Shown here: positions 13,670 to 26,320 of the stretch, one piece after another
How the letters are laid out: each line of letters starts with the position of its first letter
Position numbering within the stretch: position 1 is the stretch's first letter
NCBI GenBank assembly: GCA_905480235.1
Contig: CAJQPP010000078.1
Location: 1 to 64,000, forward strand
DNA from: an uncultured Pirellulaceae bacterium
GTDB lineage: Bacteria > Planctomycetota > Planctomycetia > Pirellulales > Pirellulaceae
Length of the DNA: 64,000 bases
Direction: 5' to 3'
The notes under the pieces: model-generated
Seen by the model: the letters and a program-made list of their open reading frames with translations, nothing else
Told to the model about the DNA's origin: nothing
The model's database searches: none
Position numbers and translations under genes: made by a program

Positions 13670-14725
13670 ATGCTGACACGGCTTACCGCGCCCTTTGCGT
13701 TTTCACTCATCGTTGGCGTTACTCTCGCCACTTATTCGCCCGGCACGGATTTCGTGGATGAAGGTATGCCGACGGGAATCAACTGGTACGGCGTCCTGCA
13801 GGATGGACTGGCGGAGGCGAAACGCACCGGCAAACCGATCCTGTTAACCTCCGCCGCCCCGCAATGCATCGGCGTGTCCGGGATGTGGTGACCGGGCAAG
13901 CAAAATACGGACAGGAGTTTCCTGACCAACGCACAACTTGTTGAAGCCGCCAAAAATTTTATCTGCATCCGCTTGGCCACCTATGAAGACGCCGGGGAGG
14001 CTAAGTTTCTCGAAAACATCTTCACCGGTCGCTCCGGCCATTTGGAAAACACCGTCTTTGTGATGCTGGCCCCGGACGGCAAAAAGCCCCTTTCACAGGC
14101 TGGGCGTGGACCGCAAATGGCATTTCGCTCTCCACAGTTAATGACTCGGGAAATGAAAAAGCTGGCCAAACGCTACCCGCCACAGGATGTTTCAGGTGCG
14201 CCCCTCCTGCCGCAAATGAAAAACTTTCGTTTAGGGTTAAACGTTGCAGAATGCGATGCCCGACCGCTGGTCGTTTGCCTTGCCACCGACGAGGCTGAAA
14301 TGAAAGCCATGCAGGACAAACTCAGTCCACTTAGCTTTAGCGATGAGTTGTGCGGGCGATTTAATTACGCGTCCGTGAATGATCCGGAAGAACTCAAGAC
14401 GATCACAGGGGACAAGCCTGCAAACGGGTTCTTGGTCATTTCACCCGGTGAATTTGGTACTGCTGGAGCAATCCAATTCACCTTGGCCGCCGCTGCCCCC
14501 GCCGCGGAAATTTCGAAGCAGCTAAACGCATTCGCTGATCAATTTCAACGTCGCGATAAGGAACATCGCAAACACGTTCGCAAGGGTCAACAAAACAACG
14601 TCGATTGGCAAACCGAAATCCCGGTGACGGACCCCATGAGCAACGCCGCCAAAGAACGGGCCTCCGGTCAATCCAAAGGCAAACGAGGCGGCCGTCGTGG
14701 CAAAGGGAAACGCCGAGATCGTTAA
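13670..14725 (+). CDS. Thioredoxin-like exported protein, candidate selenoprotein (in-frame TGA at 13889-13891 read as Sec)
   Basis: ORFs 13658-13891 and 13973-14725 are in the same frame, and the only stop between the coding halves is TGA. Conceptual translation: ...GKPILLTSAAPQCIGVSGMW-U-PGKQNTDRSFLTNAQLVEAAKNFICIRLATYEDAGEAKFLENIFTGRSGHLENTVFVMLAPDGKKPL... SECIS-like hairpin follows. Confidence 0.75.
13909..13927 (+). promoter_or_regulatory. Candidate bacterial SECIS element
   Basis: GGACAGGA-GTT-TCCTGACC: 5 perfect bp (CAGGA/TCCTG), one A.A mismatch, then 2 G-C pairs. Loop GTT starts with G; 25 nt separate the TGA from the loop. Confidence 0.65.
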
Positions 14726-14758: not shown

Positions 14759-14789
14759 AAAAAGACCCGGCCAATGGCCGGGTCTTTTT
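14759..14789. terminator. Bidirectional Rho-independent terminator
   Basis: AAAAAGACCCGGCC-AAT-GGCCGGGTCTTTTT between convergent genes 13670-14725(+) and 14826-15575(-). Confidence 0.9.
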
Positions 14790-14825: not shown

Positions 14826-15575
14826 TTATTTGCGACGACGACGCATGGCGAATCCGACTGCTCCGATACCGACGATCAAAGCTGAAGATGGCTCAGGAAC
14901 GGCTGAGGCAAAGTTCAGGTTGTCGTAATAGACACCGCTGCCGGAGAAGTTGGAAGCTGTGTTCACAAAACCGATTTGCACAGTCTCGCCAACCCAACTG
15001 GCATCATTGATATCGAGGGAAAGTTGGCCATCAACCCATGTTGTGGTTGCACCGGCGGTATCAAAAGTGTCGTTGTAAAGTGTAGCGAAACTACCGTCGG
15101 AAGTTTTCAAAACCTTTACGAAAGCGAATGCATCTTGTTCCGGTCCGGGATCGCCTACAGCAAACTGAAAATCGAAAGTCCAAACGGAATTCAGGTCGCC
15201 GGCTCCAACCAGACCCATCTCACGAAAGATGTTGGCTTCGATTACGTTGTTCGATCCATTACCGTGATCGCCATTGTTGTAATCGTTATAGGTGTTCATG
15301 TAGAACGTGCCTTGGCCAGGACCCGCCGCTCCGCTGGCAACTGCCGAAAATGCCGGTCCGCCGTTGGGAGCAGGAAAGGCAAAGTAGTTGTACAGGAAAC
15401 CGCCCGACGAATCGAAAACGTTGGCACCGACTAACCAACCGTCACCACTCAATGCGGTAGCCCCAGCTGGATCGGGGAAATTCTCAAAATTTTGGGAGTA
15501 ATTCGAAAGATCGGCTTGTGCGGCGAGCGGGAAGAGCATCGCAACGGACAAAGCCAAACAGCTGCGGAGAGACAT
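14826..15575 (-). CDS. PEP-CTERM sorting domain-containing protein
   Basis: Signal peptide MSLRSCLALSVAMLFPLAAQA; C-terminus AVPEPSSALIVGIGAVGFAMRRRRK. Confidence 0.9.
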   Translation of the reverse strand: MSLRSCLALSVAMLFPLAAQADLSNYSQNFENFPDPAGATALSGDGWLVGANVFDSSGGFLYNYFAFPAPNGGPAFSAVASGAAGPGQGTFYMNTYNDYNNGDHGNGSNNVIEANIFREMGLVGAGDLNSVWTFDFQFAVGDPGPEQDAFAFVKVLKTSDGSFATLYNDTFDTAGATTTWVDGQLSLDINDASWVGETVQIGFVNTASNFSGSGVYYDNLNFASAVPEPSSALIVGIGAVGFAMRRRRK

Positions 15576-15657
15576 GTTTGCACCTTGGGTTGATTAAAAC
15601 ATTTACAGAAAATAGATAATCGATCCGGACGAGCAAGTAGGCAGGGTCTGCCTATGC

Positions 15658-15674
15658 TTTTGGGAGCGGTTTCA
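15658..15674 (-). promoter_or_regulatory. LacI-type operator O2 of the PEP-CTERM gene
   Basis: Minus strand TGAAACCGCTCCCAAAA, identical over 17 nt to 16987-17003(+); sits 10 nt after the proposed -10. Confidence 0.6.
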
Positions 15675-15684
15675 AGCAGATGTC

Positions 15685-15713
15685 AGTATCATTGCTAGAA
15701 AAATGAGTGTCAA
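15685..15713 (-). promoter_or_regulatory. Sigma70-like promoter of the PEP-CTERM gene
   Basis: Minus strand TTGACA-17 nt-GATACT. Confidence 0.6.
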
Positions 15714-15733
15714 GGATTTTTCTTGACAAATCG

Positions 15734-15747
15734 TGAAACTGGTTTCA
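15734..15747. promoter_or_regulatory. LacI-type operator O1
   Basis: TGAAACTGGTTTCA, palindromic half-sites TGAAAC/GTTTCA. Confidence 0.65.
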
Positions 15748-15799
15748 GGCACAAACTCATTTGATTTCCCCGCAAAAACGTTCACCAGAAGGACGTTTG

Positions 15800-16804
15800 T
15801 TAGCGACGTCGGGAAACCGACTCCCGGATCACCAAATCTGCCTTCAGGCGTGGGATTTCGACGTCCCCCTCGGAGAGCATGCCCACAAGAGCCTGGGCAG
15901 CCGAAACGCCCATCTCCAAGGCCGGTTGTCGCACCGTGGTTAATGGCGGAGTAATAAATGCCGAGTTGGGCTGGTCATCAAAACCGATGATAGAAATGTC
16001 CTCAGGAACGCGAATACCTTTGCGATAGAGTGCCAACCTGGCTCCATAAGCCATTTCATCGTTGGCTGTGAAGATGGCCGTGAAACTGTGGCCCCGCATC
16101 AGCAGCGACTCCACCCCCATAACACCTGACTGGCCGCTGAAATCTCCCTCGATCACCAACTCGGTTTTGAAATCCAAGTTGGCATCCGTCAGTGCCTGAC
16201 AATAACCCTTGAAACGCCGCGTGGCGTCCTGATGCCGACGAATCCCGGTAAGGTGAGCAATATTTTCATGACCAGCATCAATTAAGAAGCGAGTGGCTTG
16301 GTAAGCAGCATCAAAGTTGTCGATAAATACGCAGCGATCGCTGAGAGCATCGAGTTGGCGAGCGACCACAATGATCGGTTTTTGCTGGGATAAATGAACC
16401 AATTTCTCCTCGCTCAGCGAGCCGCCGACAACAATCAGGCCATCCACGTGCCGACCCAACAGAGTCCCGATAACCTCTTCCTCCACCTTCGATTTCCACT
16501 GCCCATCAACAAAAACGGGTGCATAAACGGAGTCTCTCAGCCCGGAAATGATGCCCTGAGAAACGGAATCGTAGAACGGCGAACCAATGTTTTGCGTAAC
16601 GATCCCGATGGTCATCGATTGCCCACCCGCCAATCCGCGGGCAAAGATGTTGGGCTGAAAATTCAGTTTCTCCATCGCCGCCAGCACGGCCTTGCGCTTT
16701 TTCTCCGCGACGGGAGTACTATTATTAATGACTCTTGAGACGGTACTTTTGGAGACATTAGCCGTTTCAGCAATATCTTGAATCGTTACGTTTTTGAACT
16801 CCAT
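15800..16804 (-). CDS. LacI family transcriptional regulator
   Basis: 'VTIQDIAETANVSKSTVSRVINNSTPVAEKKRKAVLAAMEKLNFQPNIFARGLAGGQSMTIGIV': canonical LacI HTH plus periplasmic-binding-like domain. Confidence 0.95.
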   Translation of the reverse strand: MEFKNVTIQDIAETANVSKSTVSRVINNSTPVAEKKRKAVLAAMEKLNFQPNIFARGLAGGQSMTIGIVTQNIGSPFYDSVSQGIISGLRDSVYAPVFVDGQWKSKVEEEVIGTLLGRHVDGLIVVGGSLSEEKLVHLSQQKPIIVVARQLDALSDRCVFIDNFDAAYQATRFLIDAGHENIAHLTGIRRHQDATRRFKGYCQALTDANLDFKTELVIEGDFSGQSGVMGVESLLMRGHSFTAIFTANDEMAYGARLALYRKGIRVPEDISIIGFDDQPNSAFITPPLTTVRQPALEMGVSAAQALVGMLSEGDVEIPRLKADLVIRESVSRRR

Positions 16805-16914
16805 AGGAGACTCAGTTCTTTTTTGGGGTCAGTTTTTTTTGCACGTTTTCGTGAAACGCGATCAGATTTTGACTCGAAACAATCAAAATACGCTCTCGTT
16901 ACGTAATTATACCC

Positions 16915-16928
16915 TGAAAACGGTTTCA
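16915..16928. promoter_or_regulatory. LacI-type operator O1 (between lacI-like gene and DUF1559 gene)
   Basis: TGAAAACGGTTTCA, near-palindrome with central CG. Confidence 0.7.
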
Positions 16929-16946
16929 AAAAAACGACAAAAACAG

Positions 16947-16974
16947 TTGACACAGATCAAGATTCCTTCAAAAT
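16947..16974 (+). promoter_or_regulatory. Sigma70-like promoter of the DUF1559 gene
   Basis: TTGACA-16 nt-CAAAAT between the two operators. Confidence 0.5.
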
Positions 16975-16986
16975 GGAGAAGCGGCC

Positions 16987-17003
16987 TGAAACCGCTCCCA
17001 AAA
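16987..17003 (+). promoter_or_regulatory. LacI-type operator O2 of the DUF1559 gene
   Basis: TGAAACCGCTCCCAAAA, exact copy of the site at 15658-15674 in the opposite orientation. Confidence 0.6.
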
Positions 17004-17040
17004 TCGTTCATTCTCTGTTCTCTTGTTAAAAGGCGTAAAC

Positions 17041-18141
17041 ATGATTGCTTCGTCGGCTCGTCGTCAAAAGACAGCCTTTACTCTCATCGAGTTATTAGTC
17101 GTTATTGCCATTATTGGCATTCTTGTCAGCTTGCTGCTGCCCGCCGTACAACAAGTACGCGAAGCAGCCCGTCGCACCGAATGCTTGAACAATCTTAAGC
17201 AAATCGGTTTGGCTTCTCAAAATTTCGTCTCGGCTCAAGGCAAATTCCCAACTGCGGGCGGGTCGGACTGGGATTTCTGGGTCATGCAAAACGGCTGGCC
17301 AGATCCTGATTGGATTAACGGCATGTCGGTTAGGAACGGCCGATACGAATCAGCTGGATGGTCATTTCAATTGCTTGAGTTTATCGAGCAGGACAATCTT
17401 GCAAGACAGCGCAAGGATTTCGGTTGGGAGGGCGGAGACTACCCGCTAATCTCGACGAGCATTTCGACCTACAATTGCCCCTCTCGCGGCGAACGATTTG
17501 GTGTCCTCGGTCTTAATGCCGTGGCACTCGGCGATTACGCCGGCATCATGGGCAGCGAAAACGATCTGCCAGATGGCGAATGGGGATTCTCGTTCAACGA
17601 AGGTCAGTCGCCCAACGTAAACGAAGCTAGATTCGTTTGGAGCGGAATCATCTCGCGCGGTGGCCATACTGATTTTGTTTCAAATTCCGGATCTTCAACG
17701 GTCACTAAGTTTCCTCGTGTTACCTTCGCTTCGATTACCGATGGTAGCTCCAACACCGCCATGATCATGGAAAAAGCCGTAGCGGTTGAAAACTGGTCAA
17801 TTCCTGACACGGGCGGTTATGATTTTTGGGAGCTGAAAGGTTACTACAGCGGTGCGGATTGGCAAAATATGCGAGTTGTCACAGATAATGCTGGACCGGG
17901 CACCAACCCCGACGTGGGAATCATTTCGGACTCGGTAACTCGTCCTCAAGCTTGGCACAGCTATCCCACCGGCGACCGTCCCTTTGAAAAAGGATTTGGA
18001 TCGGCTCACCCAGCTACATTCAATTCAGTATTTGGCGACGGTTCTTGCCGACCCATTGCTTACAATGTTGATTTGACATTGATGAATAATTTGGGCAAAC
18101 GAAATGATGGAACCGTATTGGATCTGTCGCAAATTTTCTAG
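17041..18141 (+). CDS. DUF1559 domain-containing, type II pseudopilin-like protein
   Basis: ATG 17041; '[49 protein letters not shown]' prepilin-type N-terminus; C-term '[26 protein letters not shown]'. Confidence 0.95.
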
Positions 18142-18194
18142 TTTATTATCTTGGCGTTTAAGATATTTACGCCCAACCCTTGCAGGTGAATCGC

Positions 18195-18662
18195 ATGCAG
18201 AAAACTTGGATGAAATGGATTGGTTTGACGTTGGCACCGTGCCTGGCAATTTTTATGGTTGCTGGCTGCGGAGGTGGTGATGGGAGCGGTGACAAGTTGT
18301 TGGCTGACGCTAACAAAACAAGTATGGACCGAATCTGCACCCTTTACAGCTCATTCCAATTGGTGAACCAGGGTAACGGGCCTTCTGACGAGGCTACGTT
18401 CCGAAGTTTCATTAGCGAGCGGCCGCCCTTGCAACTGGAGAGAATCGGAGTCGATCCATCTGACCTCGATTCCATATTCATCTCCGATCGAGATAATGAA
18501 CCGTACGAAATCCTTTGGAGCGTCGCCGCGGATCAACGGAGTGAACCTGTCGCAATCATTGCCGAAAAGACGGGTGTAGACGGTATGCGGATGATTGGTT
18601 TTCATCGAAAACCCCATCGGGAAGTCGAAGAAGCCGAGTACAAGCAGCTGTTTGGCAATTAG
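18195..18662 (+). CDS. Small putative lipoprotein downstream of the DUF1559 gene
   Basis: ATG 18195; MQKTWMKWIGLTLAPCLAIFMVAGCGGGDG with lipobox. Confidence 0.75.
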   Translation: MQKTWMKWIGLTLAPCLAIFMVAGCGGGDGSGDKLLADANKTSMDRICTLYSSFQLVNQGNGPSDEATFRSFISERPPLQLERIGVDPSDLDSIFISDRDNEPYEILWSVAADQRSEPVAIIAEKTGVDGMRMIGFHRKPHREVEEAEYKQLFGN

Positions 18663-19079: not shown

Positions 19080-22000
19080 TTGACCCAATCCAACCAAGAA
19101 ATTGAATCGACTCGCACTGACCAAGGCACCCGCTCGGTCCCCCGCCCGACTTCCCCACCAGGCATCAGCGGACAATACGTGCAGATGGATGGCGATCGAG
19201 CGTACTGTATTTCGAACAGTCACTTGATGCCCGAATTCTTTATGACCTTGGTCAGCTCCAGCGACCACTGGATGTTCGTCTCCAGCAACGGTGCCTTAAC
19301 CGCGGGACGAACCAACGCAAACTCAGCTCTGTTTCCTTATTATTCGGCAGATAAAATTGCCGACATGCGTCATTGTACCGGCACGCTGACAGTCATGCGT
19401 GTCCGAGACAAAAACGGCAGCGAGCGATTGTGGCAACCTTTTGCCACCCAATGGGTCAACGACCCCCAGATCGTGCGTAACCTCTACAAAAATGATTTCG
19501 GAAACAAGCTGTGGTTTGAAGAAATCAACGAATCACTAGGCCTCTGCTTCCGCTATCGCTGGACCTTTGGCGATCGCTTTGGCATCGTGCGGTCCTGCGA
19601 AATCCAGAACAGGAATTCCGAACCGATTCAAATTGAACTGCTGGATGGCTTACAAAACATTTTGCCCTGCGGGATCGATCAGTTTTTCCAACTACGTTTC
19701 AGTAACCTGGCTGATGCCTATAAAAAATCGGAATTAGATCCCTCATCAGGTTTAGGTATTTACTACTTAAGCTCCATCCCCACCGACCGCGCGGAACCCA
19801 GCGAAGGATTACGGGCCACCACCGTGTTCCAAACAGGCCTGCCGGCAGCCGAGATCCTGCTCAGCAGCCGCCAAATCCCGGCCTTTTTGCTTAACGGCCA
19901 GGTCTCTGGAGAAGTCGATGTCAGAGCGCACCGCGGCGCTTATTTGGCGAAGTCCACCGTCAACATCGAAGCCAATCAATCATTCCGCTGGCAAATGGTA
20001 GCCTCGCTCAATCAAGATCAGACCGATGTGATTAACCGTCAACATCTGATTCAAACCCACGAGAACTTGGACGAGGAGATCCAGCAAGATATCGATGAGC
20101 TGCAGAATAATTTACTGCAAATACTTTCTTGTAATGATGGCCGACAACAGGGTGATGATGCTCTGCGAGTCCATCGCCACCAATCCAATGTGTTATTCAA
20201 TGTGATGCGTGGCGGAACGCCTGCCTTTGGTTACCTGGTTAACCGCAGTGACTTTACAAAACACGTCAAGCATTTCAACGCAGCCGTTTACGATCGCAAC
20301 CAAAAATATTTGGCTGATCTGCCGGAACAGCTTCGCATCGACCAATTGCTGCAGAAGCTTTCCGACCGAAATGAACCCGACCTACTGAGGATTGGTTTGG
20401 AATACCTGCCCCTCGGTTTTAGTCGACGGCATGGCGATCCCACTCGCCCTTGGAACCTATTCGAGATTCGCCTCAAGGACGAACAGGGGAATCCTGACCT
20501 CAATTACCAAGGTAACTGGCGGGACATTTTCCAAAACTGGGAAGCCCTCTCCATGTCATGGCCCCGCTTCGCACCCAATATGGTTTTCCGGTTCCTCAAT
20601 GCGTCGACCGCCGACGGTTACAACCCTTACCGGGTGACCAAAAACGGGATCGAATGGGAGGCCCCCGATGCCGAAGATCCCTGGGCCAATATCGGTTACT
20701 GGGGGGATCATCAGGTGGTTTATTTACTGATGCTTTTGGAACGCACCCGAAATTACGACCCACAGCAACTAGACCAGTGGTTGGATGCCGAATACTGCAC
20801 CTATTCCCAGGTGCCCTACCGCATTCGCAGTTACGAGGAGATTCGCCAGAATCCTCGCGAGTCGATCGATTTTGATTTTGATTTAGCGAAACGGATCGAG
20901 AGTCGGGTTTGCGATTTTGGCTCCGACGGAAAATTATTGCAAAATCGCGACGGCGGTGTTTACCGAGCTACGATGGGTGAAAAGCTGCTGGTGCCGGCGT
21001 TGGCCAAGATGACCAATTTCGTACCGGAAGGCGGGATCTGGTTGAATACCCAACGCCCTGAATGGAACGATGCCAATAACGCGCTCGCTGGCTATGGTTT
21101 ATCGATGGTGACGGTTTGTTACCTGCGTCGTTACTTGGCGTTTCTTAACGATTGGTTTGCCTCACTGACTCTGCCACAGTTTTTGGTATCCACCGACATT
21201 GTGGCCCTCATGCAGCAAATCGAAACGGTTTTGAAAGATCACCTGCCTGGTGAGCAGGCAATGAGCGATCAGCAGCGGATGGAAATGGTGGAAGGTCTGT
21301 CTCAGGCTGGTAGCCATTATCGCAAGACTCTTTATGAACGCGGCTTGGGCGGTGAAAAAGTTTATCTGCGGGTAGAAGATTGTCGCGCCTGGTTCGAGAC
21401 CTGCCTGCAACACCTCGATCATACGATCAAAGCTAACCGGCGTGAGGATGGGCTTTTCCATTCCTACAATTTAGTCGGTTTCAACGAGCGGCATGAATGC
21501 CGGGTGGAGCATTTATTTGAGATGCTGGAAGGTCAGGTCGCGGTGCTGAGCTCTGGCCAACTGACCGCCGCCGAATCAGCCGATCTACTGGATGCGTTGC
21601 GTCAGAGCAAGATGTACCGCGAAGACCAAAATAGCTACACACTGTACCCGGACCGAGCACTACCGCGGTTCGACGAGAAAAACGCGCCTGCCGCGGACGT
21701 CCTCGAAAAATCCCAATTGGTCACCGCCCTCATGCAGGCCGGCGATCGTTCCTTGGTCACCAAAGACGTCCATAACCAATGGCACTTTAACGGCGATTTC
21801 AGAAATGCTGAAGACGTCTCGGCTTGCCTGAATAAATTGGCCGAGGATGATCGCTTCCGCGAATTCGTACAGCAGGACCAATCCTTGATCGAAGAGGCTT
21901 TCGAAGAGACCTTCGAACACCGGTATTTCACGGGTCGTTCCGGGACATTTTTCGGGTACGAAGGCCTGGGATCGATTTACTGGCATATGGTTTCAAAATT

Positions 22001-22586
22001 ATCCTTAGCCGCTCAGGAATGCCTCCTCAACGCCATTGGAGAATCGGCCAATCTGGAGACGATCGCCCAGTTACGAAACCAATACATTGAGATCCGTGAA
22101 GGTACCGGCATCAAAAAAAGCCCGCGTCATTACGGAGCCTTTCCAACGGACCCCTACTCGCACACCCCTCAACATGCTGGGGCTCAACAACCAGGCATGA
22201 CGGGACAGGTAAAAGAAGATGTGATAGCCCGCTTGGCGGAGGTTGGATTGCGAATTCGGCATGGTGTCGTCAGTTTTGATCCCGTGCTATTTGAGTCAAA
22301 CGAACTTCTGCAGTCACCCTCTCAATTACGATTCTTTGATGTCTCGATGGAGCAAGTCACCTTATCCTTAGAGGCCGGTACTTTCGCGTTTACGGTCTGT
22401 CAAATCCCCGTTGTTTACCGCGAAAGCCAAGAGACTTTTATTCACGTTCACTTTAAAAGCGGAGAAGTCGTAAAACGTTCCGGCAGTTCATTGACGGCCG
22501 ACGAATCGCGAATTCTTTTTGACCGAAGTGGTGAAATATCCCAAATCAGTTTGGAATTTTCGCCACGTGACTTTCAAACATTTTGA
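19080..22586 (+). CDS. Large (alpha/alpha)6-barrel-like carbohydrate-active enzyme candidate (1168 aa), possibly glucan-phosphorylase-like
   Basis: TTG start with GAGGTAGG upstream. 'LGFSRRHGDPTRPWNLFEIRLKDEQGNPDLNYQGNWRDIFQNWEAL', 'NIGYWGDHQVVYLLMLLE', 'LNTQRPEWNDANNALAGYGLSMVTVCYL'. Neighbours are GH enzymes. Confidence 0.55.
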   Translation: MTQSNQEIESTRTDQGTRSVPRPTSPPGISGQYVQMDGDRAYCISNSHLMPEFFMTLVSSSDHWMFVSSNGALTAGRTNANSALFPYYSADKIADMRHCTGTLTVMRVRDKNGSERLWQPFATQWVNDPQIVRNLYKNDFGNKLWFEEINESLGLCFRYRWTFGDRFGIVRSCEIQNRNSEPIQIELLDGLQNILPCGIDQFFQLRFSNLADAYKKSELDPSSGLGIYYLSSIPTDRAEPSEGLRATTVFQTGLPAAEILLSSRQIPAFLLNGQVSGEVDVRAHRGAYLAKSTVNIEANQSFRWQMVASLNQDQTDVINRQHLIQTHENLDEEIQQDIDELQNNLLQILSCNDGRQQGDDALRVHRHQSNVLFNVMRGGTPAFGYLVNRSDFTKHVKHFNAAVYDRNQKYLADLPEQLRIDQLLQKLSDRNEPDLLRIGLEYLPLGFSRRHGDPTRPWNLFEIRLKDEQGNPDLNYQGNWRDIFQNWEALSMSWPRFAPNMVFRFLNASTADGYNPYRVTKNGIEWEAPDAEDPWANIGYWGDHQVVYLLMLLERTRNYDPQQLDQWLDAEYCTYSQVPYRIRSYEEIRQNPRESIDFDFDLAKRIESRVCDFGSDGKLLQNRDGGVYRATMGEKLLVPALAKMTNFVPEGGIWLNTQRPEWNDANNALAGYGLSMVTVCYLRRYLAFLNDWFASLTLPQFLVSTDIVALMQQIETVLKDHLPGEQAMSDQQRMEMVEGLSQAGSHYRKTLYERGLGGEKVYLRVEDCRAWFETCLQHLDHTIKANRREDGLFHSYNLVGFNERHECRVEHLFEMLEGQVAVLSSGQLTAAESADLLDALRQSKMYREDQNSYTLYPDRALPRFDEKNAPAADVLEKSQLVTALMQAGDRSLVTKDVHNQWHFNGDFRNAEDVSACLNKLAEDDRFREFVQQDQSLIEEAFEETFEHRYFTGRSGTFFGYEGLGSIYWHMVSKLSLAAQECLLNAIGESANLETIAQLRNQYIEIREGTGIKKSPRHYGAFPTDPYSHTPQHAGAQQPGMTGQVKEDVIARLAEVGLRIRHGVVSFDPVLFESNELLQSPSQLRFFDVSMEQVTLSLEAGTFAFTVCQIPVVYRESQETFIHVHFKSGEVVKRSGSSLTADESRILFDRSGEISQISLEFSPRDFQTF

Positions 22587-22600
22587 TTCAGGAAAACCCC

Positions 22601-24427
22601 ATGCAGATTCACACAAGCATGCGAATGCTCTCGTTGATAATCGCATTCGCATTGACGATTGCCGCGACTCCCCTGGCGGCACAACCCACTAATGTGACGC
22701 TAGAAAAAACGGACCAAGGTTGGCAATTGCAACGGGACGGCAAACCCTACTACGTCAATGGAGCGGGGGGGCAAGCCTCCGTGGAATTACTCTCTCAATG
22801 CGGCGGTAACAGCAATCGCACTTGGGGAGTCGACGATATTGATGCAACATTGCGGCACCTGGACGAAGCACACGCGAACGGTATCAGCGTCGCGCTCGGG
22901 ATTTGGATCGAGCATGAACGACATGGGTTTGATTACAACGACAAAGCAGCGTTGCAAAAACAAATCGATCTCACGTTGTCGCACGTGAAACGCCTCAAAG
23001 ATCATCCGGCGATTCTCGTCTGGGGCATCGGTAATGAGATGGAAGGCAGTGGGGCCAACGAAACCATCTGGAAACACCTTGAGGAAATTGCCCAGTTGGT
23101 GAAAAAAGAAGACCCCCATCATCCCGTGATGACCGTTGTTGCCGAACTTGGCGGCGAGGGTGAAAAAGCAAAAGCTTTTCATGAGCACTGTCCAAGTATC
23201 GACATCCTAGGCATCAACACTTACGGCGGTACCGATTCGATTCCCAGTCGTTATCGAAGTGCCGGTGGGACCAAGCCTTACCTCGTTACAGAATTCGGCC
23301 CCAACGGCCCGTGGGAAGTTGGTAAGAATTCGTTTGGTGCCGTCGAAGAGCCCACCAGTACCGAAAAAGAAAAGAAATACCGTCAATCATTGAATGCCCT
23401 CCAGGATGATTCCGAGCTATGCCTTGGGTCCTACGCGTTTCTTTGGGGACACAAACAGGAAGCCACCTCTACCTGGTTCGGGTTATTCCTGCCTGACGGC
23501 CGCAAAACAGCCGCCGTGGATGCATTGACTGAAATGTGGGGTGGCAAGGTCGATGAAAACCATTGCCCCGTGATCAATAGCATGGCCGTTAAAGGCGCGA
23601 GTGAAATCAAACCTGGCCAACAAGTGACCGTCAACCTGGACGCAACGGACCCTGACGGCGATGACGTCAAAGTTGACTGGCTGGTCATGGCTGAGGCCGA
23701 CAAGATGTTGACTGGCGGAGACTTTCAGAAAACGCCGGAGGCATTCACCAAATCGATCGTTAAATCTGATAACGAGCACGCCGTCATCAAAATGCCGGAG
23801 GCCGAAGGCATCTATCGAGTTTACGCGTTAGTGGGCGATGGTAAACGTTCCGCAGCCTCCGCCAATGTTGCTTTGTTGGTCAACCAAGAAGTGACCGACG
23901 GACCGCAAGGAAAAGACAGCGAGCTGCCTTTCATCGTTCTCGATGAACCCGACACCAACAGCGGCTATTACCCCTCCGGCTGGATGGGTAGCACCGGTGC
24001 CGTCACGATGGACGAGAGCTGCACCGACAATCCAAAATTCGGCAAGCACTGCGTGAAATTTGGCTACACCATCGGTGGTAACTGGGCAGGTGTCGTTTGG
24101 CAAAACCCACCCGATGATTGGGGCGACAAAGATGGGGGTTTCAATCTCAGCGGTGCCAAGAAACTGACGTTCTGGGCACGAGGCGAAGCCGGCGGCGAAA
24201 AAATGAAGTTTGGATTTGGTCTGCTGGGGCGAGACAAAAAGTTCTACGACACCGGCAAAAAGGAGACCAAAGAGATCAAGCTAACCAAAGACTGGAAGCA
24301 ATACAGCATCGATCTGGAAGGCCTCAATCTCAACCGTATCAAATCCGGTTTTTACTGGACGCTGGCCGGCCAAGGTAAACCGATTACGTTTTACCTTGAC
24401 CGCATCGCTTTTGAAGATGGGAAGTAA
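22601..24427 (+). CDS. Exported clan GH-A (GH2-type TIM barrel) glycoside hydrolase-like protein with C-terminal carbohydrate-binding-like domain
   Basis: Signal peptide MQIHTSMRMLSLIIAFALTIAATPLAAQ; 'AILVWGIGNEMEG' (acid/base Glu) and 'KPYLVTEFGPNGPW' (nucleophile Glu). Confidence 0.75.
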   Translation: MQIHTSMRMLSLIIAFALTIAATPLAAQPTNVTLEKTDQGWQLQRDGKPYYVNGAGGQASVELLSQCGGNSNRTWGVDDIDATLRHLDEAHANGISVALGIWIEHERHGFDYNDKAALQKQIDLTLSHVKRLKDHPAILVWGIGNEMEGSGANETIWKHLEEIAQLVKKEDPHHPVMTVVAELGGEGEKAKAFHEHCPSIDILGINTYGGTDSIPSRYRSAGGTKPYLVTEFGPNGPWEVGKNSFGAVEEPTSTEKEKKYRQSLNALQDDSELCLGSYAFLWGHKQEATSTWFGLFLPDGRKTAAVDALTEMWGGKVDENHCPVINSMAVKGASEIKPGQQVTVNLDATDPDGDDVKVDWLVMAEADKMLTGGDFQKTPEAFTKSIVKSDNEHAVIKMPEAEGIYRVYALVGDGKRSAASANVALLVNQEVTDGPQGKDSELPFIVLDEPDTNSGYYPSGWMGSTGAVTMDESCTDNPKFGKHCVKFGYTIGGNWAGVVWQNPPDDWGDKDGGFNLSGAKKLTFWARGEAGGEKMKFGFGLLGRDKKFYDTGKKETKEIKLTKDWKQYSIDLEGLNLNRIKSGFYWTLAGQGKPITFYLDRIAFEDGK

Positions 24428-24442
24428 AGGTAAACCAACCCC

Positions 24443-26320
24443 TTAATCGATCATCCAAATGGCTTGATCGATGGCAATCTGCCAGAAAAACGGAGTGGCT
24501 GAAAACTCGGGACTCTGCCAAGTCAACTTGGCAGTGATCTCCCCAGTCGAGTCTTTCACGAACCGCGACAGGTCACCTGTCGCGGTTATCTCCATCAGCC
24601 CGTCCTGATTAACTGCGAATCCGCTTTCCACGACCTCCCATTGTCGGAGGTTGGTATCTAACAGCGAGATTGACTGCAGGACATCACCGGCAGGCCCGCC
24701 CGACATGGAAGCTTCCAAACGAAAACCGAGACTGCTCGGATTGCTGATTTCCGAATTCGCAATCAAGACCATGTCGACTTTTTGTTTCGCCGGATTGCCG
24801 GTCGGTGATGGATCCAATCGGTAGTAAGTATCATCCCCGGTAGCTACGTTCGATAGTTGACCGGAAACGGCGACGCCATCTAATAACTTGCGTCCCAGGG
24901 GTTCGATAACGCCAGGGAGAATTCTGCAACTGATATTGTCCACGTAGACCGAACCGCCGTCGAATTCATTCTGCTTGAAGACGACTGCCAACCTGGCTTC
25001 CACCGCGCCGGCCGGAACGACGGTGGTCACAATCTGGTTGTACCATTGGTCATTAGCGGAACTGCCATTCGCAATCACTTTAAAGAAACTGCCAAGGTAT
25101 TGGGCAGAGCCATAGGCCGCGTGCGCCTTGGAATAGTAATCGAACTTGAAGACAAGCTCATTACCTGTCCCGGCGATGGAGTCGCTGGAGGGAAGGAAGC
25201 GATCAATCGAGGCGGCAATCGTTTGCCCGGGCATGACGGTCAAGCCTTGCTGCACACCCGAGTAATTCACGGTCCCGTCGAATTGCCCAAACAGTTTCAA
25301 TGATTCGAAACCATCCGTGACGTAATTGGCACCTGTAACAATGTTTGGCAGACGGTTCCCAAATAACGACCAATGAGCCATCGAACCACCATTTTGTTCG
25401 AAACTGCCATTTTCAAACGTCAATTGGTAGGCGCCGGCTGTGCGTTCAAATGCGTATACGTAATCCACGAAAAACTGTTGCGGCCAGACCGTCGTTTCAT
25501 CCGGATTGGAAAGAAAACTACCGCCCACTGCGGTGTTTAAAATAACACTCATGGGTGCGGTTTGATTGGAAATAAAGGCCTCGGTATCGGCATCAAAAAC
25601 GGTGTAATGATGCACATCATCAATGTAATATCTCACTTGATCAGCATCCCATTCCGCCGCGTAAACGTGGAAATTGCTGTGGTAATCCGTTAAGCCTGCC
25701 CGATTAATCGTCTGATTTTCACGATACAAAAAATCGTGCCGATAGGGTGGGTTGGTACCCCAATGAAACGCACTGCTAGTCGTGAACGGTTCATCGCCAC
25801 GATTTTCCATGATGTCGATTTCCCCTTGGCTCGGCCATGAGAATTGCTGAGTATCCGGCAACAACCAGATGGCAGGCCACATCCCACGAGAAGTCGGCAA
25901 ATCCGCTCGCACTTCAAATCGTCCGTATTGCTGACGGATCTTACTGGTCACCAAACCACTAAGATAAGGCAAACCACCCGTGGCAATATTTTCCGAAGTA
26001 ATCACCAGATTGCCACCATTGACCGCTACTTGGCTGGGACGGTAGGCATGCAAAGAATTGTTCGTAGGCGAATTACTGAAACTCGCCTCCCACTTCGTCG
26101 TATCCAGCGAACTACCATTAAATTCGTCGAACCAGGTCACATTCCAATTCGGACTAGCGGGCGGTGCATTTCTTTGGGCCGGCGGAGGCGTTCGAGTTTT
26201 TCCGCCCTCCTTGCTACCCCCTACTCCGCGTCGTTGAGCTTCAACGGATTGCGGGAAGGGCAGGGCGGTCAAAAAAAACAACAAGCAAATCCACGCGAAC
26301 GAGGGGACGATACGGCGCAT
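24443..26320 (-). CDS. GH16 family endo-beta-glucanase/laminarinase-like protein
   Basis: 'GMWPAIWLLPDTQQFSWPSQGEIDIMENRGDE' (GH16 catalytic ExDxxE), 'FHVYAAEWDADQVRYYIDD'; signal peptide; C-terminal CBM-like region. Confidence 0.9.
   Translation of the reverse strand: MRRIVPSFAWICLLFFLTALPFPQSVEAQRRGVGGSKEGGKTRTPPPAQRNAPPASPNWNVTWFDEFNGSSLDTTKWEASFSNSPTNNSLHAYRPSQVAVNGGNLVITSENIATGGLPYLSGLVTSKIRQQYGRFEVRADLPTSRGMWPAIWLLPDTQQFSWPSQGEIDIMENRGDEPFTTSSAFHWGTNPPYRHDFLYRENQTINRAGLTDYHSNFHVYAAEWDADQVRYYIDDVHHYTVFDADTEAFISNQTAPMSVILNTAVGGSFLSNPDETTVWPQQFFVDYVYAFERTAGAYQLTFENGSFEQNGGSMAHWSLFGNRLPNIVTGANYVTDGFESLKLFGQFDGTVNYSGVQQGLTVMPGQTIAASIDRFLPSSDSIAGTGNELVFKFDYYSKAHAAYGSAQYLGSFFKVIANGSSANDQWYNQIVTTVVPAGAVEARLAVVFKQNEFDGGSVYVDNISCRILPGVIEPLGRKLLDGVAVSGQLSNVATGDDTYYRLDPSPTGNPAKQKVDMVLIANSEISNPSSLGFRLEASMSGGPAGDVLQSISLLDTNLRQWEVVESGFAVNQDGLMEITATGDLSRFVKDSTGEITAKLTWQSPEFSATPFFWQIAIDQAIWMID
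24561..24587. repeat. 27-nt perfect palindrome inside the GH16 gene
   Basis: AACCGCGACAGGT-C-ACCTGTCGCGGTT: 13-bp arms around one central base. Confidence 0.85.

Follow-up and report, generated by a model that had tools for sequence, protein, structure and literature searches.

In the lac operon of Escherichia coli, the main operator lies near +11 and an auxiliary upstream operator, at about −82, is present on the same promoter. In the E. coli gal operon, where the repressor GalR is dimeric, operator OE lies near −60 and OI near +53, a spacing of about 114 bp. To our knowledge, little is known about the sugar regulons of planctomycetes. Ravcheev et al. (2014, PMC4052901) described the operators of LacI-family regulators as CG-centred palindromes, with more than one site at about 20% of the operons, autoregulation in 72% of the cases and site spacings peaking at 13, 22 and 32 bp; Planctomycetes are not mentioned in the text of that paper. 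Planctomycetes have many DUF1559 paralogues of unknown role, with 68 in Planctopirus limnophila (PMC10632474), and pilin-like proteins have been proposed in a review to pull polysaccharides into the planctomycete periplasm (PMC12078418).

Here we describe a LacI-family regulator gene flanked on both sides by promoters that each lie between two operators. The window analysed was a stretch of 64,000 nucleotides from an uncultured Pirellulaceae bacterium (contig CAJQPP010000078.1, positions 1 to 64,000).

Organization of the two promoters

The elements of the two promoters follow in a common order, i.e., O1, 18-20 nt, TTGACA, 16-17 nt, −10, 10-12 nt and O2 (Table 1). When the sequence was re-read, the order given for both promoters in the preliminary description was right to the base. 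The identical 17-base O2 at both promoters (TGAAACCGCTCCCAAAA) and the location of the LacI-family gene between the promoters were likewise as described, and the O1-O2 spacing, given as about 72-73 bp, was measured from centre to centre as 73 bp in the PEP-CTERM promoter and 72 bp in the DUF1559 promoter. Assuming that transcription starts about 7 nt downstream of each −10 box, the centres of O1 and O2 were estimated to be at about −62 and +11 in the PEP-CTERM promoter and at about −60 and +13 in the DUF1559 promoter. In a consensus scan, both TTGACA promoters scored 10/12, the best in the region, and their −10 elements, GATACT and CAAAAT, each had 4/6 consensus matches. A central CG is present in the right O1 and in both copies of O2 (TGAAACCG), with the left O1 having CA/TG instead.

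Table 1. Features of the regulator locus in the window
Feature	Position	Strand	Remarks
PEP-CTERM protein, exported, 249 aa (target gene 1)	14826-15575	−	N-terminal SNYSQNFE motif; PF07589, 26.5 bits
PEP-CTERM promoter O2	15658-15674	−	TGAAACCGCTCCCAAAA; 10 nt after −10; same in L097
PEP-CTERM promoter −10, GATACT	15685-15690	−	17-nt spacer; consensus scan; same in L097
PEP-CTERM promoter −35, TTGACA	15708-15713	−	20 nt after O1; consensus scan; same in L097
PEP-CTERM promoter O1	15734-15747	−	TGAAACCAGTTTCA; kept in same-genus relative
LacI/GalR-family regulator, 334 aa	15800-16804	−	PF00356, 70.1 bits; PF13377, 111.6 bits
Presumed lacI −10, TATAAT (perfect)	16906-16911	−	3 nt beyond right O1
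DUF1559 promoter O1	16915-16928	+	TGAAAACGGTTTCA; kept in same-genus relative
DUF1559 promoter −35, TTGACA	16947-16952	+	18 nt after O1; consensus scan; same in L097
DUF1559 promoter −10, CAAAAT	16969-16974	+	16-nt spacer; consensus scan; same in L097
DUF1559 promoter O2	16987-17003	+	TGAAACCGCTCCCAAAA; 12 nt after −10; kept in same-genus relative
DUF1559 protein, type IV pilin-like N-terminus (target gene 2)	17041-18141	+	PF07596, 118 bits; PF07963, 29.5 bits
Small lipoprotein	18180-18662	+	Collinear with DUF1559, also in many relatives
GH149 1,3-beta-glucan phosphorylase	19080-22586	+	NCBIfam NF058639, 1554.7 bits (cut-off 1150)
GH2-type TIM-barrel glycoside hydrolase	22583-24427	+	PF02836, 34 bits; follows GH149 in many relatives
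GH16 (laminarinase-type) protein	24443-26320	−	PF00722, 72 bits; faces the GH149 run

The 17-base word shared by the two intergenic regions exceeded the longest shared word in any of 1000 mononucleotide shuffles of these regions (maximum 15, mean 8.2). In the same-genus relative (G002, locus L097), whose regulator is 92% identical, 43 of the 43 bases of O1, −35, −10 and O2 are kept at each promoter (86/86 in total); outside the elements, 91/126 bases are identical at the left promoter and 139/173 at the right one (Fisher p for elements versus flanks, 8e-6 and 3e-4, respectively). The left O1-O2 spacing is 72 bp in the relative versus 73 bp in the window, suggesting tolerance for a difference of one base. 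A recent origin of one promoter by duplication of the other was rejected because the two align poorly outside the elements, which leaves convergence or an old duplication as readings.

O2 is asymmetric, with a perfect TGAAACCG in the promoter-facing half and a degenerate gene-facing half (CTCCCA, CTACCA, CTATCA). The asymmetry has the same direction in most lineages, for example in the O2 copies of the window, L190:5764, L158:8527, L054:7780 and L098:8950, and is reversed in L160 and L116. The presumed PEP-CTERM mRNA leader contains a short stem just past O2 (15637-15651, GGCAG ACC CTGCC), the counterpart of which in L097 is GGGCAGGCCCTGCCC.

The regulator and its presumed promoter

The regulator consists of a LacI-type HTH and a periplasmic-binding-protein-like sensor, with both Pfam models matching above cut-off. 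It is the only PF00356 match in the 4.83-Mb assembly, which is 86.7% complete, and the four operator sites therefore have one obvious reader. Its closest relatives in the PDB are CcpA structures. It scored far below every cut-off of the GalR, RbsR, PurR and CytR equivalog models and reached 200 bits with the CcpA equivalog, the cut-off of which is 442. The tetramerization helix of the Lac repressor is C-terminal, at about residues 340-360. No such helix was found in the regulator, which ends near Lac repressor residue ~331; the alignment with the Lac repressor reaches residue 311 and 20 residues remain to the C-terminus.

On the plus strand, the perfect lacI −10 is seen as ATTATA directly left of CCC-TGAAAACGG, and GGGTATAAT, which follows the right O1 on the lacI strand, is unchanged in L097. 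This TATAAT, abutting the right O1, probably drives lacI. The right O1, on the opposite strand, fills the −35/−10 spacer of the presumed lacI promoter, and a second job for it in the autoregulation of lacI is plausible from this arrangement.

Occurrence of the operators in the genome and the order

Exact copies of the O2 core, TGAAACCGCTCCCA, were found only at the two sites of the window in the whole assembly. Among the twin sites returned by a search of the own genome, only the two in the window combine a TTGAC promoter with a complete O2. Thirty-four further near-matches were re-read with their flanks; 31 are within ORFs, and each of the three in intergenic regions either is weak or precedes an unrelated ORF. 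The best other intergenic operator-like site (L207:1076, G000:C35:3775) is TTAAATCGGTTTCA; it scores 16.3 bits and precedes an unrelated ORF (MNLSQVMTELKKKGSAQ...) by 91 bp. The other two score lower. A genome-wide regulon was rejected, since the near-matches examined gave no credible target besides the four sites of the window.

In 397 genomes of the order, the composite pattern O1-TTGAC-O2 had six matches, and a reversed control had none. Five of the six are at loci of the regulator or its orthologues, namely the two promoters of the window and those in G397, G152 and G148, which are upstream of MFS or GH149 genes and adjoin orthologous regulators; the sixth, in G358, is probably a chance match with a non-CG palindrome. 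That palindromes and promoter-like words have met by chance to give the whole pattern has a negligible probability: single near-matches are indeed common in the genome, but the composite pattern, the footprint in the same-genus relative and the conservation among orthologues all argue against such an origin, which we regard as refuted by the shuffle and footprint analyses together with the composite search and its reversed control.

Regulators of 46-64% identity were gathered from the order and the family and their loci were read; in a phylum-wide sample, no relative of the regulator above 34% identity was found outside the order. The operators at these loci are mostly TGAAACCGGTTTCA. A position-weight matrix of the palindrome detected 137 sites of at least 14 bits in 1.23 Mb of orthologue loci versus nine in the reversed sequence, counts that lean towards the matrix because it was trained on sites from these same loci. 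In the tree of aligned orthologues, 53 of 68 regulators have sites at the promoters of their loci and the 15 without a site above threshold are clustered in a few clades; many of the genomes are draft metagenome assemblies. Conservation of the operator pair, proposed earlier as a point to be checked, was seen in the same-genus relative, in which the pair is unchanged at both promoters, and sites of this kind are present at the loci of most orthologues. Nearly all orthologues that have operators share the recognition helix SKSTVSR.

A class of promoters with the order O1, TTGACN, 16-18 nt, −10, 7-12 nt and O2 was found upstream of a PEP gene in L190 (O1-O2 spacing 71 bp), of DUF1559 in L054 (82 bp), L156 (72 bp) and L106 (69 bp), of MFS genes in L101 and L165, and of GH149 in L099, L105 and L160 (63-64 bp). 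Nine of 11 chosen pairs have TTGAC and a −10 between O1 and O2 on the strand of the gene, compared with none on the opposite strand and a shuffle expectation of 0.07 on average (maximum 2). The distance from O2 to the −10 is nearly fixed (mostly 10-12 nt), whereas that from O1 to the −35 is variable. Other promoters of the regulon have no clear TTGAC box, with spacings of 40-42 bp upstream of DUF1559 in some genomes and of 42 and 63-66 bp in lacI-MFS arrays. Three or four operators are arrayed between lacI and MFS in L103, L107, L161 and L163. In L112 (8953-13042), lacI and DUF1559 are tandemly duplicated, with an operator pair at each copy.

Predicted target genes and the controlled unit

In relatives, the regulator adjoins genes for GH149, an MFS_2 sugar symporter, DUF1559, the lipoprotein, GH2-type or GH16 proteins, with lacI beside GH149 in many of them and sites upstream of lacI, MFS, DUF1559 or GH149. 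Genes downstream of sites are those of DUF1559, the MFS_2 symporter, GH149, GH16, GH3 and PEP-CTERM proteins; the site preceding GH3 belongs to one clade (L175 and L176), and L115 has an ORF of similar size in the same place. Since sites and regulator co-occur with GH149, MFS, GH16 and GH3 in relatives and GH149 is present in the window, we take the locus to be a local regulon of the LacI family dedicated to the use of β-1,3-glucan, probably in the form of laminarin oligosaccharides. The link to a laminarin-type β-1,3-glucan was strengthened by the downstream GH149 and its conserved co-localization in relatives.

The same description had placed two genes under a sugar-responsive, two-promoter repression module. 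The predicted action of the adjacent regulator on both promoters is supported, and response to a sugar is probable, but the controlled unit is larger than two genes, as DUF1559 heads a collinear run with the lipoprotein, GH149 and GH2-like genes. The DUF1559 protein more likely starts at the ATG at 17041, preceded by AAAAGGCG, than at the TTG at 17023. In eight of 11 genomes with many paralogues, the DUF1559 gene at the regulator locus is the best match to that of the window. GH149 probably starts at about 19160. No terminator-like site was found on the plus strand between 18662 and 19080, and GH149 is presumed to be transcribed by read-through from the DUF1559 promoter. The MFS_2 symporter of relatives lies between the lipoprotein and GH149, where the window has a gap of ~0.4 kb; no close homologue of it was found elsewhere in this assembly or that of the same-genus relative. 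GH16 neighbours GH149 in several relatives, and no operator was found upstream of the window GH16 in this genome.

Clear homologues of the PEP-CTERM protein (E<1e-20) among the other genomes tested were confined to G472 and G291; both are encoded at LacI loci that carry operators. In G472, the next gene codes for a GH16-like PEP-CTERM protein. In the G291 homologue (L191:2015-3046), a dockerin-like tail replaces the PEP-CTERM signal, and the gene is still behind an operator. AlphaFold modelling from three sequences gave a mean pLDDT of 48.6 and the fold was set aside. A strong bidirectional terminator-like hairpin (14 pairs, 14759-14789) separates the PEP-CTERM gene from the gene that ends at 14725.

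Possible mode of regulation

The conservation of this layout on β-1,3-glucan genes in relatives indicates a real and specific genetic switch, the general kind of which is well known. The most likely mechanism is steric block at O2, strengthened by O1. A dimer bound at O2, just past the transcription start (+11/+13), would block initiation, and a second dimer at O1 (about −60) would reinforce repression of the same promoter, via cooperative contact or a short loop, possibly with a DNA-bending protein. The O1 on the DUF1559 side would also shut the divergent lacI promoter. An oligosaccharide or sugar derived from β-1,3-glucan would release the repressor, turning on the PEP-CTERM protein on one side and the run of DUF1559, lipoprotein, GH149 and GH2-like genes on the other. 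Based on the gene content in the window and in relatives, a β-1,3-glucan, most simply as laminarin oligosaccharides, is the likely cue, the exact inducer being a matter of prediction from this content. Taken as a whole, a local repressor acting on two twin-operator promoters, with block at O2, reinforcement from O1 and β-1,3-glucan-derived induction, is in our judgement a highly probable explanation of the locus.

The module had been called capable of DNA looping, and this we could not uphold: the regulator has no tetramerization helix, the O1-O2 spacing ranges from 40 to 143 bp across lineages and phasing at 10.5 bp is weak. With 20 lineage-by-promoter values, grouped by hand, phasing at 10.5 bp gave R = 0.37 (p~0.06; p~0.03 in the TTGAC subset) and the V-test gave p~0.01 (0.04 in the TTGAC subset); the periodogram of the spacings peaked at 7.9 bp, not 10.5 bp. 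Helical phasing, being weak and unspecific to 10.5 bp, was rejected as proof of looping. An essential Lac-type loop, in which one tetramer, or a pair of dimers assisted by an architectural protein, would bridge O1 and O2 at about seven helical turns, is therefore doubtful: besides the missing helix and the misplaced periodogram maximum, spacings of 65-69, 77 and 143 bp misfit integral turns. It draws its share of credit from the V-test, the 72-73 bp at both promoters in two species, the steps of O1 by roughly helical turns in TTGAC promoters (63-64, 71-73 and 82 bp) and the retention of O1 upstream of a PEP gene where no divergent gene exists.

The two operators might also divide their labour without cooperation, O2 serving the target gene and O1 only the autoregulation of lacI. 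The perfect TATAAT that adjoins O1 on the strand of lacI and is unaltered in the relative, the single site ~85 bp upstream of lacI in some g71 genomes and the 72% of LacI-family factors that are autoregulated (PMC4052901) are in accord with such a division. However, the left O1 faces the 3' end of lacI, where there is no promoter, and in L190 and L158 O1-O2 pairs are located upstream of PEP genes with same-strand neighbours and no divergent gene, making this explanation improbable. Because these copies of O1 are beyond the reach of autoregulation, O1 probably has a role at its own promoter, too.

A centre near −60 is a usual position for an activator site. Dual control, with repression from O2 and activation from O1 as by CcpA at upstream sites, would agree with the centre of O1 at about −60 and with CcpA as the nearest PDB relative, but both sites flank one promoter, good −35 boxes need no activator and the score with the CcpA equivalog is below the cut-off. 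We consider dual control very unlikely.

Comparison with known systems

Through an operator pair that is shared and conserved, one DUF1559 gene and one PEP-CTERM gene are linked at this locus to the phosphorolysis of β-1,3-glucan. The locus is a specific test case for pilin-like proteins in polysaccharide uptake. The practical gain is a substrate that can be tested, an inducible promoter at hand and a binding motif with which the order can be scanned. More tentatively, and with the balance somewhat against it, DUF1559 paralogues may each serve a particular substrate within an apparatus by which planctomycetes capture glycans, under the control of repressors that are specific for individual sugars and act via a conserved operator-promoter-operator cassette; here, a cytoplasmic β-1,3-glucan phosphorylase would be coupled to a dedicated pilin-like DUF1559 protein, a lipoprotein and a PEP-CTERM or dockerin-tailed protein at the cell surface.

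The system fits the known picture of a local LacI-family regulon. As in the local sugar regulons of this family (RegPrecise-type, PMC4052901), the operator is an even, CG-centred palindrome, the regulator is beside its targets, the targets include carbohydrate genes, autoregulation is expected and a promoter has more than one site, as at about 20% of their operons; unlike in those regulons, the spacings are mainly 40-42, 63-69 and 71-73 bp, and the sites bracket the promoter in a fixed order, a layout repeated on both sides of the regulator gene. With E. coli lac O1/O3, the locus shares a main operator near +11 and an upstream auxiliary one, but the auxiliary operator is ~20 bp nearer (about −60 versus −82) and the regulator is without the C-terminal tetramerization helix. 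Similar to gal OE/OI are the dimeric LacI/GalR-type protein and the upstream operator near −60, whereas the internal operator is near +12 instead of +53 and the spacing is 72-73 bp instead of about 114 bp. CcpA/cre of Firmicutes provides the closest solved structures and the same operator type; the window regulator, however, is local, with two promoters in the genome, and is below the cut-off of the CcpA model. What sets the locus apart is that an operator-promoter-operator cassette flanks the regulator on either side and is conserved on different genes, together with the predicted coupling of a pilin-like DUF1559 protein and a PEP-CTERM protein to a cytoplasmic phosphorylase.
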